From a virus: a stretch of 20,477 nucleotides of DNA. Where the stretch lies: IMG/VR virus record IMGVR_UViG_3300009422_000065, positions 1 to 20,477 of that record, one strand, 5' to 3'. The position numbers and the translations under genes were made by a program. The notes below the pieces were generated by a model. It was given only the letters and a program-made list of their open reading frames with translations. It was not told the DNA's origin and ran no database searches. Shown here piece by piece: positions 1-11,665 of the stretch; within the stretch, counting starts at the first letter, position 1; the number at the start of each line of letters is the position of its first letter.

Positions 1-446
1 TACATATCTATTACGCTCAGCGTAACGAAGTTTTTTTCTAGCAATCTATCTGCTCCTGATCCTTTGACGTATGTCTCTGCTACTGGCTGGCCTTCGTTCA
101 TTCGCCTGGCTGCAATTGCATCTGCATCGAATACGGTTGGCTGGCTTGATCCGATCTGTGCTGGTTGATACGCTGCGGAGCATTTCTGAGCTGCCTTCAC
201 GAAATTGTAAGGCGTGGGCCATGATCTTGTGCGGTTGTTCTTGCGTACATCTTGGGACATCTTGCTTAGAACATTGTTGAGGGCGTCTTCATTGATACCG
301 TCTGATATCTCTGAGTTGATATCCTCGACCATTGCTGACATTTCTTTAGCAGCTCTATCTGTGGTGTGGTTTGCCGGTACATCGTAGGATTGCAGCTCTT
401 GCTGTAACCATGCGCCAATTGATCTTGTACGTTGCTCGTATTTCAT
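1..446 (-). CDS. Partial phage protein downstream of the replication initiator (possible helicase loader or replication partner)
   Basis: The reading frame opens with ATG at 446 and stays open to position 1, so the C-terminus lies outside the window. The ATG overlaps the initiator stop codon (ATGA), which implies translational coupling. About 148 residues are visible. They start MKYEQRTRSIGAWLQQEL and are rich in charged and polar residues, with predicted helices and a central RKNNRTRSWPTPYNF stretch. No enzymatic motif, signal peptide or membrane segment is seen. In lambda-like phages the gene right after the O-type initiator encodes the helicase loader, and the position here invites that reading. 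It rests on context alone. A DNA-binding accessory protein is equally possible. Confidence 0.6.
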   Translation of the reverse strand, partial: MKYEQRTRSIGAWLQQELQSYDVPANHTTDRAAKEMSAMVEDINSEISDGINEDALNNVLSKMSQDVRKNNRTRSWPTPYNFVKAAQKCSAAYQPAQIGSSQPTVFDADAIAARRMNEGQPVAETYVKGSGADRLLEKNFVTLSVIDM

Positions 447-1135
447 TGGATCATCTTTCTATCATTTGTAAGTGAGCCAAGAATGGCCTGCATTTGTTGA
501 TCGCTGCTCATGTCCTGCAATGAAGCCTCTTGCAGTTCGTCATCCCATCTTTCCCCGTTTAGCCATGTTGCCAGGTGCGGCATGAATTTATTATCTTGGT
601 TGCCCCATGATCTGACAAAGAGTGCTAGTGAATGTTGGATCTTATCGGCTGGCGTTTTTGTGATTGCCTTTGCCAGCGCTTTTCTTGCTGTACCCTTGCC
701 TACCTTCTTTGGATACATCTTCCAAAGATCATCGAAAATGGACATATCTTTAGAGGTTATACTTCCAAGGTTATTACTTCCAAGGTTATGGGGTGGCAGA
801 TTCTGCCATGGGGGGCTAGCAGAATCTGCTAGGGGGGGTGGCAGATTCTGCCATGGTTGTTTTGTTAGGTTTAAGCGATATCCGTTGCTAGTTTGACTGC
901 CATTGCTGCGCTTTCGTTGCACTCTTGTGACTACTCCTGATTGCTCAAGGGTGTCTATGTGTCCTTGAACTGCACGTTTTGACATCTCACATTCTTCCGC
1001 AAGAGTAGAAAGGCTGGGAAAGCAAGCTTCTGTTTCGCTGTTGTGATGGTCTGCTATCCAATAAAGCACGATCTTAGCCGGTGCTTTTAGCCCCTTTTGC
1101 TGCATCGCTAGTGCAGTCATATAATGCGACATCAT
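443..1135 (-). CDS. Winged-helix phage replication initiator (O-like)
   Basis: This 230-aa protein has two parts. Residues about 15-90 form a winged helix-turn-helix of the HTH_36 / phage-O N-terminal type (FPSLSTLAEECEMSKRAVQG, then a wing ending NGYRLNL). Residues about 131-210 match the C-terminal region common in phage replisome organisers (DLWKMYPKKVGKG ... PHLATWLNGERWDDE). A Pro/Asn-rich linker at about 91-127 joins them, and its DNA carries palindromic iterons. The architecture is that of proteins that bind origin iterons and recruit the helicase. Start: tandem ATGs at 1135 and 1132 preceded by AAAAGGG. The gene lies downstream of rusA after a 122-nt gap and overlaps the next gene by ATGA. 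The role is firm by family resemblance; origin binding is inferred. Confidence 0.85.
   Translation of the reverse strand: MMSHYMTALAMQQKGLKAPAKIVLYWIADHHNSETEACFPSLSTLAEECEMSKRAVQGHIDTLEQSGVVTRVQRKRSNGSQTSNGYRLNLTKQPWQNLPPPLADSASPPWQNLPPHNLGSNNLGSITSKDMSIFDDLWKMYPKKVGKGTARKALAKAITKTPADKIQHSLALFVRSWGNQDNKFMPHLATWLNGERWDDELQEASLQDMSSDQQMQAILGSLTNDRKMIQ
761..789. repeat. Two 14-bp direct repeats beside the iterons
   Basis: The word ACTTCCAAGGTTAT occurs at 761-774 and again at 776-789, with a 15-bp period. On the minus strand it encodes the doubled NLGS of the initiator linker. Because the period is five codons, it could simply be a short protein repeat. However, it directly abuts the palindromic iterons and a moderately AT-rich stretch (about 735-775), as in origins where a duplex unwinding element flanks iterons. 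Confidence 0.7.
794..853. repeat. Three palindromic iterons; probable replication origin inside the initiator gene
   Basis: Three palindromes share the core GCAGA-W-TCTGC: TGGCAGATTCTGCCA at 794-808, CTAGCAGAATCTGCTAG at 816-832 and TGGCAGATTCTGCCA at 839-853. Their centres are at 801, 824 and 846, that is 23 and 22 bp apart, about two helical turns. They are separated by G-runs. The outer two are read in the same frame (both give WQNLP), but the middle one is in another frame (ADSAS), so the DNA word rather than the peptide is conserved. The site lies in the linker-coding part of the initiator gene, as do the lambda ori iterons in gene O. The origin role is inferred. Confidence 0.7.
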
Positions 1136-8986: not shown

Positions 8987-11665
8987 TTAAGAAATCCTTA
9001 AGAAAACGGTGATACTCATATTATTGTAAACGTAATAGGCATATGAAAAACCCATTGTGCGCCACGTCCCTGACATGCCGCCGATAAGGCTAGACGTAGT
9101 TTGAGTTAAGACGTTTGATTGGCGTAAATTAGTACCAGCAACCGTCATACCACTGTAATAAGCGTAGTTATTATCGCTCATTTGCGCTCGAACACCAAGC
9201 GCGTAGCTACCTACGGAATTAAATGTTACCCCAACACCAGTTCCAGACGGTCCAGTAGGTCCAGTAGGCCCAGTAGGTCCAGTGCCTCCGCCCGAACCAG
9301 TGGGTCCAGTAGGTCCAGTAGGTCCATTAGAGCCGTTCGATCCGTTAGGGCCAGTAGGACCAGTTGGTCCCGCAAGAGCAGCATTAGCAATGGTTTGTTT
9401 TTCCCAAGTGCTTGAAGATACATCGTAAACAGGGATAAGGTCAGCAGAGGCTGCATCTGTTCCGGTGCTGAATGCAGTGATTGCAGTTCCTACGTTGGCC
9501 GCATCTGTTACATCTGATGACGCTTCAATACCATTTAATTTTGTATGGTCTGCATCTGTAAACACATTGGAATCTGTAGCTGCTTCTACTGCTGTTCTAA
9601 TTTCAGCGTTACTTTGGTCTGCCGTCGCGCTTGCTTCGATACCGTTAAGCTTGGTGTGGTCTGCATCTGTGAAAACATTACTGTCAGAAGCCGCCTCTAC
9701 CGCAGTTCTAATTTCAGCATTTGTTTGATCTGCTGTAGCCGACGTTTCTATCGTATCTAATTTTGTTCCATCAGCCGAAACATCCCGACCATCAACTGTT
9801 TGTGTGCCTGAGAATGTTAGGTTCCCAGTGAGCTGGCCACCAGAAAGAGCAAGGAAACCAGAGCCAGCAGTAACGCCTTGTTCCCATGCACTTCCCGTAT
9901 ATACCTTTAAAGTATCGTTATTCGTGTTGAAAAATAAATCTCCAGAGTCATTGTCGCTAGAAGGATCAGATGAACCCACACGATAACGCGCAGCAAAATC
10001 ATTAACTCCACCTAAGTTAGATGCAACACTGTTAACATTAGATATCGAACCAGACACGTTGGACATCGCCGTGACATTAGCAGATGTACCCAGTATCCCC
10101 ATATCCTCAATGATAGCGGCGACTGCCAGTATTCCCATGTCTTCGACAACGGCGCTAGTTCCAAGCAAACCCATTGCTGTTACGTTTGCTGAAGTACCAA
10201 GGGTATTCATATCGCTAACGATATCGCTCGTAGCTAACGTATTCATATCGGATACTACATCACTTGTAGCCAGTATAGCTAAGTCAGCAACTACAGCAGA
10301 CGTGCCAAGCAGTCCCATGTCTTCGACTACAGCAGATGTACCAAGTAAACCCATTGCTGCTACATTGCCGGTAGTGGCCAATAAATTCATGTCAGCAACT
10401 ACATCAGTAGTAGCAAGAGTATTAAGATCCGCAATGATATCACTATTTGCCAGAGTATTCATATCAGATACTACATCTGAGGTTCCCAGTATCGCCATGT
10501 CGGCCACAACTGCGCTAGTTCCTAACAGCGCCAAGTCAGCAATGGCAGCCGATGTACCAATAAGACCCATGTTTGTAACTGTAGTTGAGTTACCCAATAG
10601 CCCCATTGCCGTTACGTTTGCGCTCGTTGCCAAGGTATTTAAATCAGAAACAACATCACTTGTTGCTAACGTATTCATGTCAGCAACCACATCAGTAGTG
10701 CCTAGAATAGCCATGTCAGCTACAATGGCGTCAGTAGCCAAAATGGCCATATCAGCGATTACTGCGCTAACTGCTAACAGACCCATATCCTCAATCACAG
10801 CAGACGTACCAAGTAGAGACATATTACCGACAACGGTAGACGTACCAAGTAGACCCATGTCTTCGATAACCGCAGCGGTAGCTAACAAATTCATGTCAGT
10901 GACAACATCGCTTGTGCCCAGGATGGCCATGTCGGCCACAACATCTGATGTACCTAAGATTGCCATATCAGCTACGATTGCATCAGTACCTAAGATTGCC
11001 ATATCGGCTATTGCTGCTGTTGTTCCTAGTAAAGCCATTGCAGATACATTGCCAGATGTACCAAGTAAACCCATGTCTTCGATAACCGCAGAAGCGGAAA
11101 GTAAGCCCATGTCTTCAATAACTGCGGCAGTACCAAGAAGATTAATAGATGTAGTTACATTAGCTAAAGACTGAACTGCGGTGATGTTTGGACCGGCTTC
11201 TGGATCTCCGCTTGTTGCGTTAAACCCCAGGACTGTACCCTTACGCACATTCTTTACAGGAAGCTCTAGGTTTGTATAAACATCACCGGCATTAAGAAAT
11301 AACCCACGCTCAATTTTTTCATCAAGCTGCTGTGCCATGATAACATTACTATCAAGTTGTTCATTCAAGCTTGAAGCCAACAAATCACCAGCAGTAACAA
11401 AGTCTGTTGTTCGAGATAACTCACGACCACCAATGATTGTAAGAACGTCAGATGAAATTAAAGCCACCCCCAAGGAAACCGATCCGGTTCCGTTTGCGTT
11501 CAAAGACACAGAATAATTAGTTGTTAATGTTAATAATGTGTTATTTTTAAAAACAGCAATATCGGTTTGCTGTAATGCGTTGAATGTAAATGCAAAAGGT
11601 CCAGTTCCAGTATTGCCTGTGAACTGAACTCGGCGCGTTACCGGATTGATTGCGATATTGCTCAT
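8987..11665 (-). CDS. Tail fibre with T7-type N-terminus, 12-residue repeats and a collagen-like segment
   Basis: An 892-aa receptor-binding fibre. Residues 1-120 resemble the T7 fibre attachment domain (VQFTGNTGTGPFAFTFNALQ, DIAVFKNNTLL, then GRELSRTTDFVTAGDLLASS), which joins the fibre to the tail. Residues 177-536 are thirty uninterrupted 12-residue repeats of consensus L-G-T-S-x-V-V-x-D-M-x-L. Residues 634-716 carry a repeated 37-residue unit. Residues 766-810 are Gly-x-y collagen-like (GPTGPTGPNGSNGSNGPTGP), predicting a trimer. Residues 811-892 are a Tyr-rich globular tip (YAYYSGMTVAG, GFSYAYYVYNN), presumably receptor-binding. GGAAAG precedes the start. Its chaperone is next. The repeat fold is unknown. 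Confidence 0.92.
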   Translation of the reverse strand: MSNIAINPVTRRVQFTGNTGTGPFAFTFNALQQTDIAVFKNNTLLTLTTNYSVSLNANGTGSVSLGVALISSDVLTIIGGRELSRTTDFVTAGDLLASSLNEQLDSNVIMAQQLDEKIERGLFLNAGDVYTNLELPVKNVRKGTVLGFNATSGDPEAGPNITAVQSLANVTTSINLLGTAAVIEDMGLLSASAVIEDMGLLGTSGNVSAMALLGTTAAIADMAILGTDAIVADMAILGTSDVVADMAILGTSDVVTDMNLLATAAVIEDMGLLGTSTVVGNMSLLGTSAVIEDMGLLAVSAVIADMAILATDAIVADMAILGTTDVVADMNTLATSDVVSDLNTLATSANVTAMGLLGNSTTVTNMGLIGTSAAIADLALLGTSAVVADMAILGTSDVVSDMNTLANSDIIADLNTLATTDVVADMNLLATTGNVAAMGLLGTSAVVEDMGLLGTSAVVADLAILATSDVVSDMNTLATSDIVSDMNTLGTSANVTAMGLLGTSAVVEDMGILAVAAIIEDMGILGTSANVTAMSNVSGSISNVNSVASNLGGVNDFAARYRVGSSDPSSDNDSGDLFFNTNNDTLKVYTGSAWEQGVTAGSGFLALSGGQLTGNLTFSGTQTVDGRDVSADGTKLDTIETSATADQTNAEIRTAVEAASDSNVFTDADHTKLNGIEASATADQSNAEIRTAVEAATDSNVFTDADHTKLNGIEASSDVTDAANVGTAITAFSTGTDAASADLIPVYDVSSSTWEKQTIANAALAGPTGPTGPNGSNGSNGPTGPTGPTGSGGGTGPTGPTGPTGPSGTGVGVTFNSVGSYALGVRAQMSDNNYAYYSGMTVAGTNLRQSNVLTQTTSSLIGGMSGTWRTMGFSYAYYVYNNMSITVFLRIS
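9236..9370 (-). repeat. Collagen-like Gly-x-y segment of the tail fibre
   Basis: About 15 Gly-x-y triplets (residues 766-810), mostly GPT and GSN, with one glycine-rich interruption (SGGGTG). The DNA is a 9-bp repeat around GGTCCAGTA on the plus strand. Such segments trimerise phage fibres and change length readily by slippage. Confidence 0.85.
9518..9766 (-). repeat. 37-residue (111-bp) tandem repeat in the tail fibre
   Basis: A unit beginning TKLDTIETSATADQTNAEIR and ending NVFTDADH occurs twice in full (residues 634-670 and 671-707), with a third truncated copy (TKLNGIEAS from 708). The two full copies differ at only a few residues, which suggests a recent duplication. The same motif type is familiar from fibres of marine phages. 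Confidence 0.85.
10058..11137 (-). repeat. Thirty 12-residue (36-bp) tandem repeats in the tail fibre
   Basis: Residues 177-536 divide exactly into 30 units of 12 without insertion or deletion. Three subtypes recur: one with V-I/V-E-D-M-G-L, one with D-V-V-x-D-M-N-T and one with A-N-V-T-A-M-G-L. They tend to run in the order N-type, A-type, D-type, which suggests block duplication. Hydrophobic residues fall at unit positions 1, 6-7, 10 and 12. Confidence 0.93.

Follow-up and report, generated by a model that had tools for sequence, protein, structure and literature searches.

Does a phage initiator gene carry within itself the origin at which its own product acts? This question is raised by the IMG/VR virus record IMGVR_UViG_3300009422_000065, analysed here as a whole (20,477 bases; hereafter the window), in which three palindromic repeats (iterons) lie inside a replication initiator gene (443..1135, minus strand, 230 aa), so designated from matches to phrog_270 and Pfam HTH_36. 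We infer, with a probability of roughly 0.9, that 755-853 is a phage replication origin embedded in its own initiator gene in the manner of the lambda ori. In our computations, the sites are under selection, restricted to initiators with a winged helix-turn-helix (wHTH) domain, fixed in geometry, covariant with the recognition helix of that domain and adjoined by the gene's least stable DNA. The sequence-only reading of this DNA had proposed a probable origin within the initiator gene, and the intragenic sites, the DNA-level selection, the helix covariation and the adjoining unstable DNA support it.

In coding order, iteron 1 (TGGCAGATTCTGCCA, 839-853) and iteron 3 (TGGCAGATTCTGCCA, 794-808) share the core GCAGATTCTGC (841-851 and 796-806, respectively). 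Iteron 2 (TAGCAGAATCTGCTA, 817-831) has the core GCAGAATCTGC (819-829), and its symmetry reaches 816-832 (CTAGCAGAATCTGCTAG). Start to start, these GCAGAWTCTGC palindromes (cores at 796, 819 and 841) are spaced by 23 and 22 bp, and the middle one lies in a different frame from the outer two, being translated to LADSAS rather than WQNLPP. Coordinates, spacing and the predicted disorder of the encoded linker all agree with the earlier description of three same-core palindromes 22-23 bp apart in the linker-coding part, and the frame change of the middle palindrome was likewise found as described. Two direct repeats noted beside them are also present; they form an exact tandem of 15 bp (TACTTCCAAGGTTAT at 760-774 and 775-789), not 14 bp as stated there. 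With up to one mismatch allowed, the core matched only these three places in the whole window, and three such matches occurred in 0 of 100 dinucleotide shuffles of the window (mean 0.44). When synonymous codons were shuffled with the peptide fixed and the gene's own codons used, three exact cores arose in 0 of 20,000 shuffles and two cores in 59 of 20,000.

The arrangement is not confined to the window. When 2.9 million viral contigs were scanned for a pair of cores separated by 5-25 bp, the pattern was found in 96 virus contigs, versus 2 contigs for a permuted control palindrome of the same composition. These contigs were selected by the pattern, with the frame free and the spacing limited only by the one pair 16-36 bp apart. 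Among the 97 cluster-bearing open reading frames (ORFs), 75 matched a wHTH profile grown from the N-terminal domain of the window initiator, 65 matched HTH_36, and 73 and 72 matched the PHROG initiation families 391 and 270, respectively. In the contigs with wHTH initiators, 193 cores fell within 49 kb of initiator ORF versus 2 in 496 kb of flank; the cores were invariably 3' of the wHTH, the first one a median of 57 nt beyond it. Core spacings in 57 distinct linkers fell mainly at 16-18 and 21-24 bp and never at 19-20 bp. Three cores are present in Vibrio phage vB_VpM-pA2SJ1, at spacings of 23 and 22 bp, and in Aeromonas phage 4_4512, whose 42-kb genome has no others; the records of the named phages that carry the arrangement mark no origin there. 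Bacterial genomes or metagenome-assembled genomes (MAGs) provided wHTH examples from Sphaerisporangium, Streptomyces, Solirubrobacteraceae and Phycisphaerales, and the pattern scan of bacterial-genome contigs yielded just five inspected loci with a wHTH, most others being chance occurrences or different genes. For distant named initiators, the palindrome scores of single genes mostly fell short of significance, since the score demands exact symmetry and their iterons are degenerate.

The palindromes are maintained as DNA. Cluster ORFs read the palindrome as AESAP, QNLHP or RRICT, that is, in all three frames; the 193 cores of the 57 linkers are distributed over the frames as 129, 16 and 48, and frames are mixed in 42 of these linkers. 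In eight relatives, 2 of 14 degenerate palindrome codons varied synonymously versus 135 of 198 elsewhere (p = 1e-4). When iterons and spacers were taken together, 3 of 19 codons were synonymously variable, as opposed to 126 of 165 in the remainder of the gene (p = 3e-7); for the AACC repeats 3' of the iterons, the count was 2 of 16 (p = 6e-7). Both the frozen synonymous sites and the use of all three frames across virus contigs bear out the prediction, offered earlier as a check, that the palindromes are kept while the peptide drifts. The repeats could instead have been selected as peptide motifs (WQNLPP, AESAP or QNLHP) with the DNA palindrome as a by-product, as some single-frame linkers (for example, those with AESAP repeats) and the predominance of frame 0 (129 of 193 cores) would suggest. 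However, most linkers are mixed in frame, synonymous shuffling never recreated the three cores, synonymous sites are frozen and the linker is predicted to be disordered. We consider peptide selection very unlikely and rejected it on the frame and synonymous-site results. From frames, synonymous variation and codon shuffles alike, the iteron sites are under selection at the DNA level independently of the peptide.

The strongest test came from relatives fetched with the C-terminal domain alone, so neither the wHTH nor the palindromes selected them, and 21 sequences entered the covariation test. In all those examined within the window family, three sites were located at offsets of 19/41/64 or 22/44/67 nt past the wHTH; the site spacing of 22 and 23 is constant in the family and the site sequences differ between members. 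Helices of the KRAVQG/AH type pair with the iteron GGCAGAATCTGCC, KRAVQMH with GCAAAATTTGC-type iterons, E/DKSVHTH with TGTAAAATTTACA-type iterons, ERSVHYH with CTGCAAAATCTGCAG and DR[ST]T[IV]IRH with GTCGCAAAATGCGAC-type iterons. Among all 9-residue windows of the N-terminal domain, the best predictor of iteron distance was MSKRAVQGH (r = 0.949, n = 21), residues of which sit at the start of the recognition helix (residues 53-65) in the AlphaFold2 model. The partial correlation of the helix given the rest of the domain was 0.957, and that of the rest given the helix was -0.54. The initiator most likely binds its iterons, whose sequence covaries strongly with its own recognition helix. A second initiator family from prophages, fetched via helix-1/2 motifs, has GTGN9CAC iterons about 21-24 bp apart, and its members L302-L381 carry three to six of them within about 180 nt past the wHTH; the best window there was EISRRSVMD (r = 0.757, partial 0.42), a weaker link to the helix. 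In L302-L381 the residue preceding the conserved helix His (R, S, N or D) also seems tied to bases 4-5 of the half-site, R going with GTGAC and S with GTGAA. Elsewhere, the initiators of L245, L247, L262, L266, L289 and L290 have different palindrome-like repeats in the same place, such as GGTGTCACAGTGACACC, GCCGTGAGTCACGGC and, in Pseudomonas phage MD8, repeated CCCCGCAGNNNATGCACC-like units.

These pairings also bear on two other explanations of the palindromes. Inverted repeats in transcripts can fold, and the palindromes might on that ground be RNA hairpins in the mRNA. Their innermost pairs, however, are symmetric although unusable in a hairpin loop, the inner positions change symmetrically in the QMH group (GCAGAATCTGC to GCAAAATTTGC), and the palindrome sequence tracks a helix that reads DNA. 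Owing to this inner symmetry and the agreement with the DNA-reading helix, the hairpin explanation was rejected as highly improbable. A selfish palindromic element inserting in any frame, like the Rickettsia palindromic elements, would account for one core occurring in many genes and in all frames, but not for the confinement of cores to the initiator gene in wHTH-initiator contigs (193 versus 2), the fixed offsets in the window family or the replacement of the sequence in step with the recognition helix. It was rejected on these three grounds and is extremely improbable.

The 40 bp of lowest stability in the initiator gene (741..780; nearest-neighbour energy -44.8 versus a gene mean of -53.7, standard deviation 3.2) come immediately 3' of the iterons, in coding sense, and make up a candidate unwinding region. 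This region overlaps an AACC repeat element (755..789, minus strand) that consists of the 15-bp tandem ATAACCTTGGAAGTA in two copies (760-789) and a third TAACC, with AACC copies in the minus-strand reading at 784-787, 769-772 and 755-758. AACC repeats are retained in all helix/iteron specificity groups. Across the 57 initiators, AACC occurs at 22.8 per kb in the 80 nt past the last iteron versus 4.1 elsewhere in the genes, whereas its complement GGTT is not enriched there (1.3 versus 2.9 per kb). The copies are spread over the three frames (36/32/40) and often start 6 or 8 nt past the last palindrome core. Their total of 105 exceeds the 61 expected by codon resampling (maximum 75 in 300), and the commonest distance between consecutive copies is 11 bp (23 cases, versus a null mean of 4 and a null maximum of 10); the whole-gene test of AACC was weaker than the position-specific one. 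The element is missing from lambda O and several initiators. AACC direct repeats, strand-specific and frequently with an 11-bp spacing, were seen directly 3' of quite different iterons, namely in the initiators of the window, L001-L096, L290, L298 and L302-L381. The direct repeats noted in the sequence-only reading are one instance of this broader pattern. The element may be an unwinding or loading site.

Palindromes of this kind are typical of operators bound by dimers, and such wHTH domains resemble MarR-type repressors, so the sites might serve transcriptional repression by the initiator or another phage regulator with no role as an origin. We regard this as unlikely. The sites lie about 280 nt inside the gene and never ahead of the wHTH-coding part, they adjoin the conserved unstable AACC-repeat region, and the genes that host them belong to PHROG initiation families. 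Moreover, a regulator other than the initiator would leave the covariation with the initiator's own helix unexplained.

Several results count against the embedded-origin reading. The permutation p values for the helix, 2e-4 in both families, are optimistic because the sequences in the covariation sets are related and fall into few groups, and the remainder of the domain correlates with the iterons as well in the second family (0.66). In L099/L225 the recognition helix is unchanged, yet one of the three sites is intact; the two altered palindromes (GCAGAGCGTGC and GCAGATCGTGC) are both altered in the same half. Of the clusters, 22 of 97 are outside a detected wHTH ORF, some in tail-fibre or low-complexity genes and some in truncated ones. 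In addition, GC skew in the window tracks gene orientation and gives no origin position, so the skew check proposed with the sequence-only reading is uninformative; in the complete relative Aeromonas phage 4_4512, the skew also tracks gene orientation, apart from a local dip near the initiator.

From N to C terminus, the window initiator is composed of a wHTH, a linker and a C-terminal domain (YPKK...ATWLNGERW). The phrog_270 profile 'replication initiation protein' matched residues 2-205, comprising the wHTH and the C-terminal region (E = 1.8e-42), and HTH_36 matched residues 15-67 (E = 1.4e-14). By HTH_36 and the AlphaFold2 model, the winged-helix DNA-binding domain covers residues 15-88 (872..1093, minus strand); the model has helices and wing strands at 69-75 and 81-88, with a per-residue confidence (pLDDT) of mostly about 80-89. 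AlphaFold2-predicted helix and covariation together place the recognition helix KRAVQGHIDTLEQ at 941..979 (minus strand). Residues 93-133, encoded by the stretch that holds the putative origin (737..859, minus strand), are predicted to be disordered (pLDDT < 50). The C-terminal domain (YPKK...PHLATWLNGERW, 536..736, minus strand) is alignable across relatives and probably contacts a helicase or its loader. A search of PDB sequences gave nothing relevant, and a Foldseek search of PDB folds gave weak generic winged-helix matches, among them DnaD-N and Rep-DNA structures, including the Rep-DNA entry 5kbj and 4pql ('N-terminal domain of DNA binding protein').

By analogy with lambda ori, winged-helix-domain dimers would bind the three iterons, one dimer per palindrome, and the bound dimers would stack at intervals of about two helical turns. 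Once assembled, the complex could strain and open the adjoining unstable stretch of AACC repeats (741-789), and the C-terminal domain, tethered by the disordered linker, would recruit the replicative helicase or the helicase loader. The predicted part of the model comprises the binding of dimers, the opening of the strands, the loading of the helicase and the function as an origin.

The closest parallel is lambda. The iterons of lambda are inverted repeats bound by dimers of O, after which an adjacent A+T-rich tract opens (PMC7466680, PMC5043065). In lambda ori and its Stx-phage versions, as in the window, the initiator gene itself contains inverted-repeat iterons, which in the 3' direction immediately follow the part encoding the DNA-binding domain. 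In our analysis, the lambda O iterons are in frames 0, 2, 2 and 1 with spacings of 20, 24 and 23, and the stability minimum of the gene begins about 3 nt past iteron 4, adjoining the iterons as in the window. Both genes share the order of DNA-binding domain, mixed-frame iterons about 20-24 bp apart, least stable DNA and C-terminal domain. The parallel with gene O drawn earlier stands in layout, mixed frames, spacing and adjoining unstable DNA. The accompanying contrast stands for the iteron sequence (TGGCAGAWTCTGCCA in the window versus ATCCCTCAAAACGAGGGA in lambda) but not for the palindromic iteron as such, which is no novelty because O dimers already bind inverted repeats in lambda. The two systems differ in other respects. 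Lambda O matches PF04492 (Phage_rep_O, 5.7e-36) and TIGR01610 (5.4e-39), whereas Pfam and NCBIfam scans gave no match of the window initiator to either, its N-terminal domain being HTH_36. The window has AACC repeats beside the iterons where lambda has an A-rich tract, and the C-terminal domain of the window initiator clusters apart from lambda O. The wHTH-iteron cassette is fused to at least four C-terminal types, one of which clusters with lambda O; five other contigs with the window iteron, plus Vibrio phage pA2SJ1, cluster with lambda O by this domain.

In the RepA_N initiators (PLE, pSK41 and pTZ2162 RepA), an N-terminal wHTH domain with a fold related to that of DnaD-N binds semi-palindromic iterons, and the C-terminal domains vary (PMC7145576). 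These initiators share with the window a wHTH N-terminal domain and palindrome-like iterons, with a weak fold resemblance, and the window initiator did not match PF06970 (RepA_N) in the Pfam scan. Unlike the intragenic iterons of the window, PLE iterons are in a noncoding region, and RepA_N-system iterons converge on a poly-A tract, a further difference. In pSK41-type plasmids, the iterons are within rep. Repeats inside the initiator gene act as the origin in phages of Gram-positive bacteria as well (lactococcal TP901-1/Tuc2009 and SPP1 gene 38), with initiator families and hosts that differ from those of the window. An intragenic iteron origin is a known kind of arrangement. A literature search for the core sequence found nothing on phage replication by title, and, as far as the incompletely searched literature shows, this sequence class, its breadth, the covariation of helix and iteron and the AACC element are undescribed.

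Several other features were observed. The gene downstream of the initiator (3-446, minus strand) has a 4-bp overlap with the end of the initiator gene and is retained in relatives (for example, at 5687-6220 of L101); it matched no known family, and its product might, as a guess, be a helicase loader or partner. The 892-aa tail-fibre-like protein encoded at 8987-11665 (minus strand) has many degenerate 15-residue repeats (AILGTSDVVADM...) and a GPTGPTG collagen-like stretch. In L114 (6175-6814) and L175 (3936-4294; Flavobacterium), same-core pairs 19 bp apart recur every 100-210 bp outside long ORFs and not in initiator genes. In the Clostridiales MAG RUG680 (L123, L131, L135, L161 and L166), a core pair 23 bp apart is found near several contig ends, which suggests a repeat element that breaks the assembly.

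The lambda-type arrangement recurs across a far broader set of phages, in which the DNA-binding domain is not recognised as that of lambda by Pfam and NCBIfam. The position of the sites in the linker-coding part means that the DNA-binding domain and its sites are inherited and recombined together. The odds seem balanced that the phage initiators of the HTH_36 type constitute a large and modular class of self-addressed origins, with iterons in the linker of each gene, a wHTH-iteron cassette joined to several unrelated C-terminal domains and a strand-specific AACC element for unwinding or loading that different iteron classes share, its direct repeats often spaced by 11 bp (one helical turn) and beginning a few nt past the last iteron; if so, many natural protein-site pairs would make the recognition code of the winged helix readable. 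As each gene encodes both a DNA-reading helix and its presumed sites, every homologue would be a naturally matched protein-DNA pair, which would make origins predictable from sequence alone and provide a large data set on the evolution of winged-helix specificity. Moreover, since protein and site move together, a phage may change its origin specificity without breaking compatibility.
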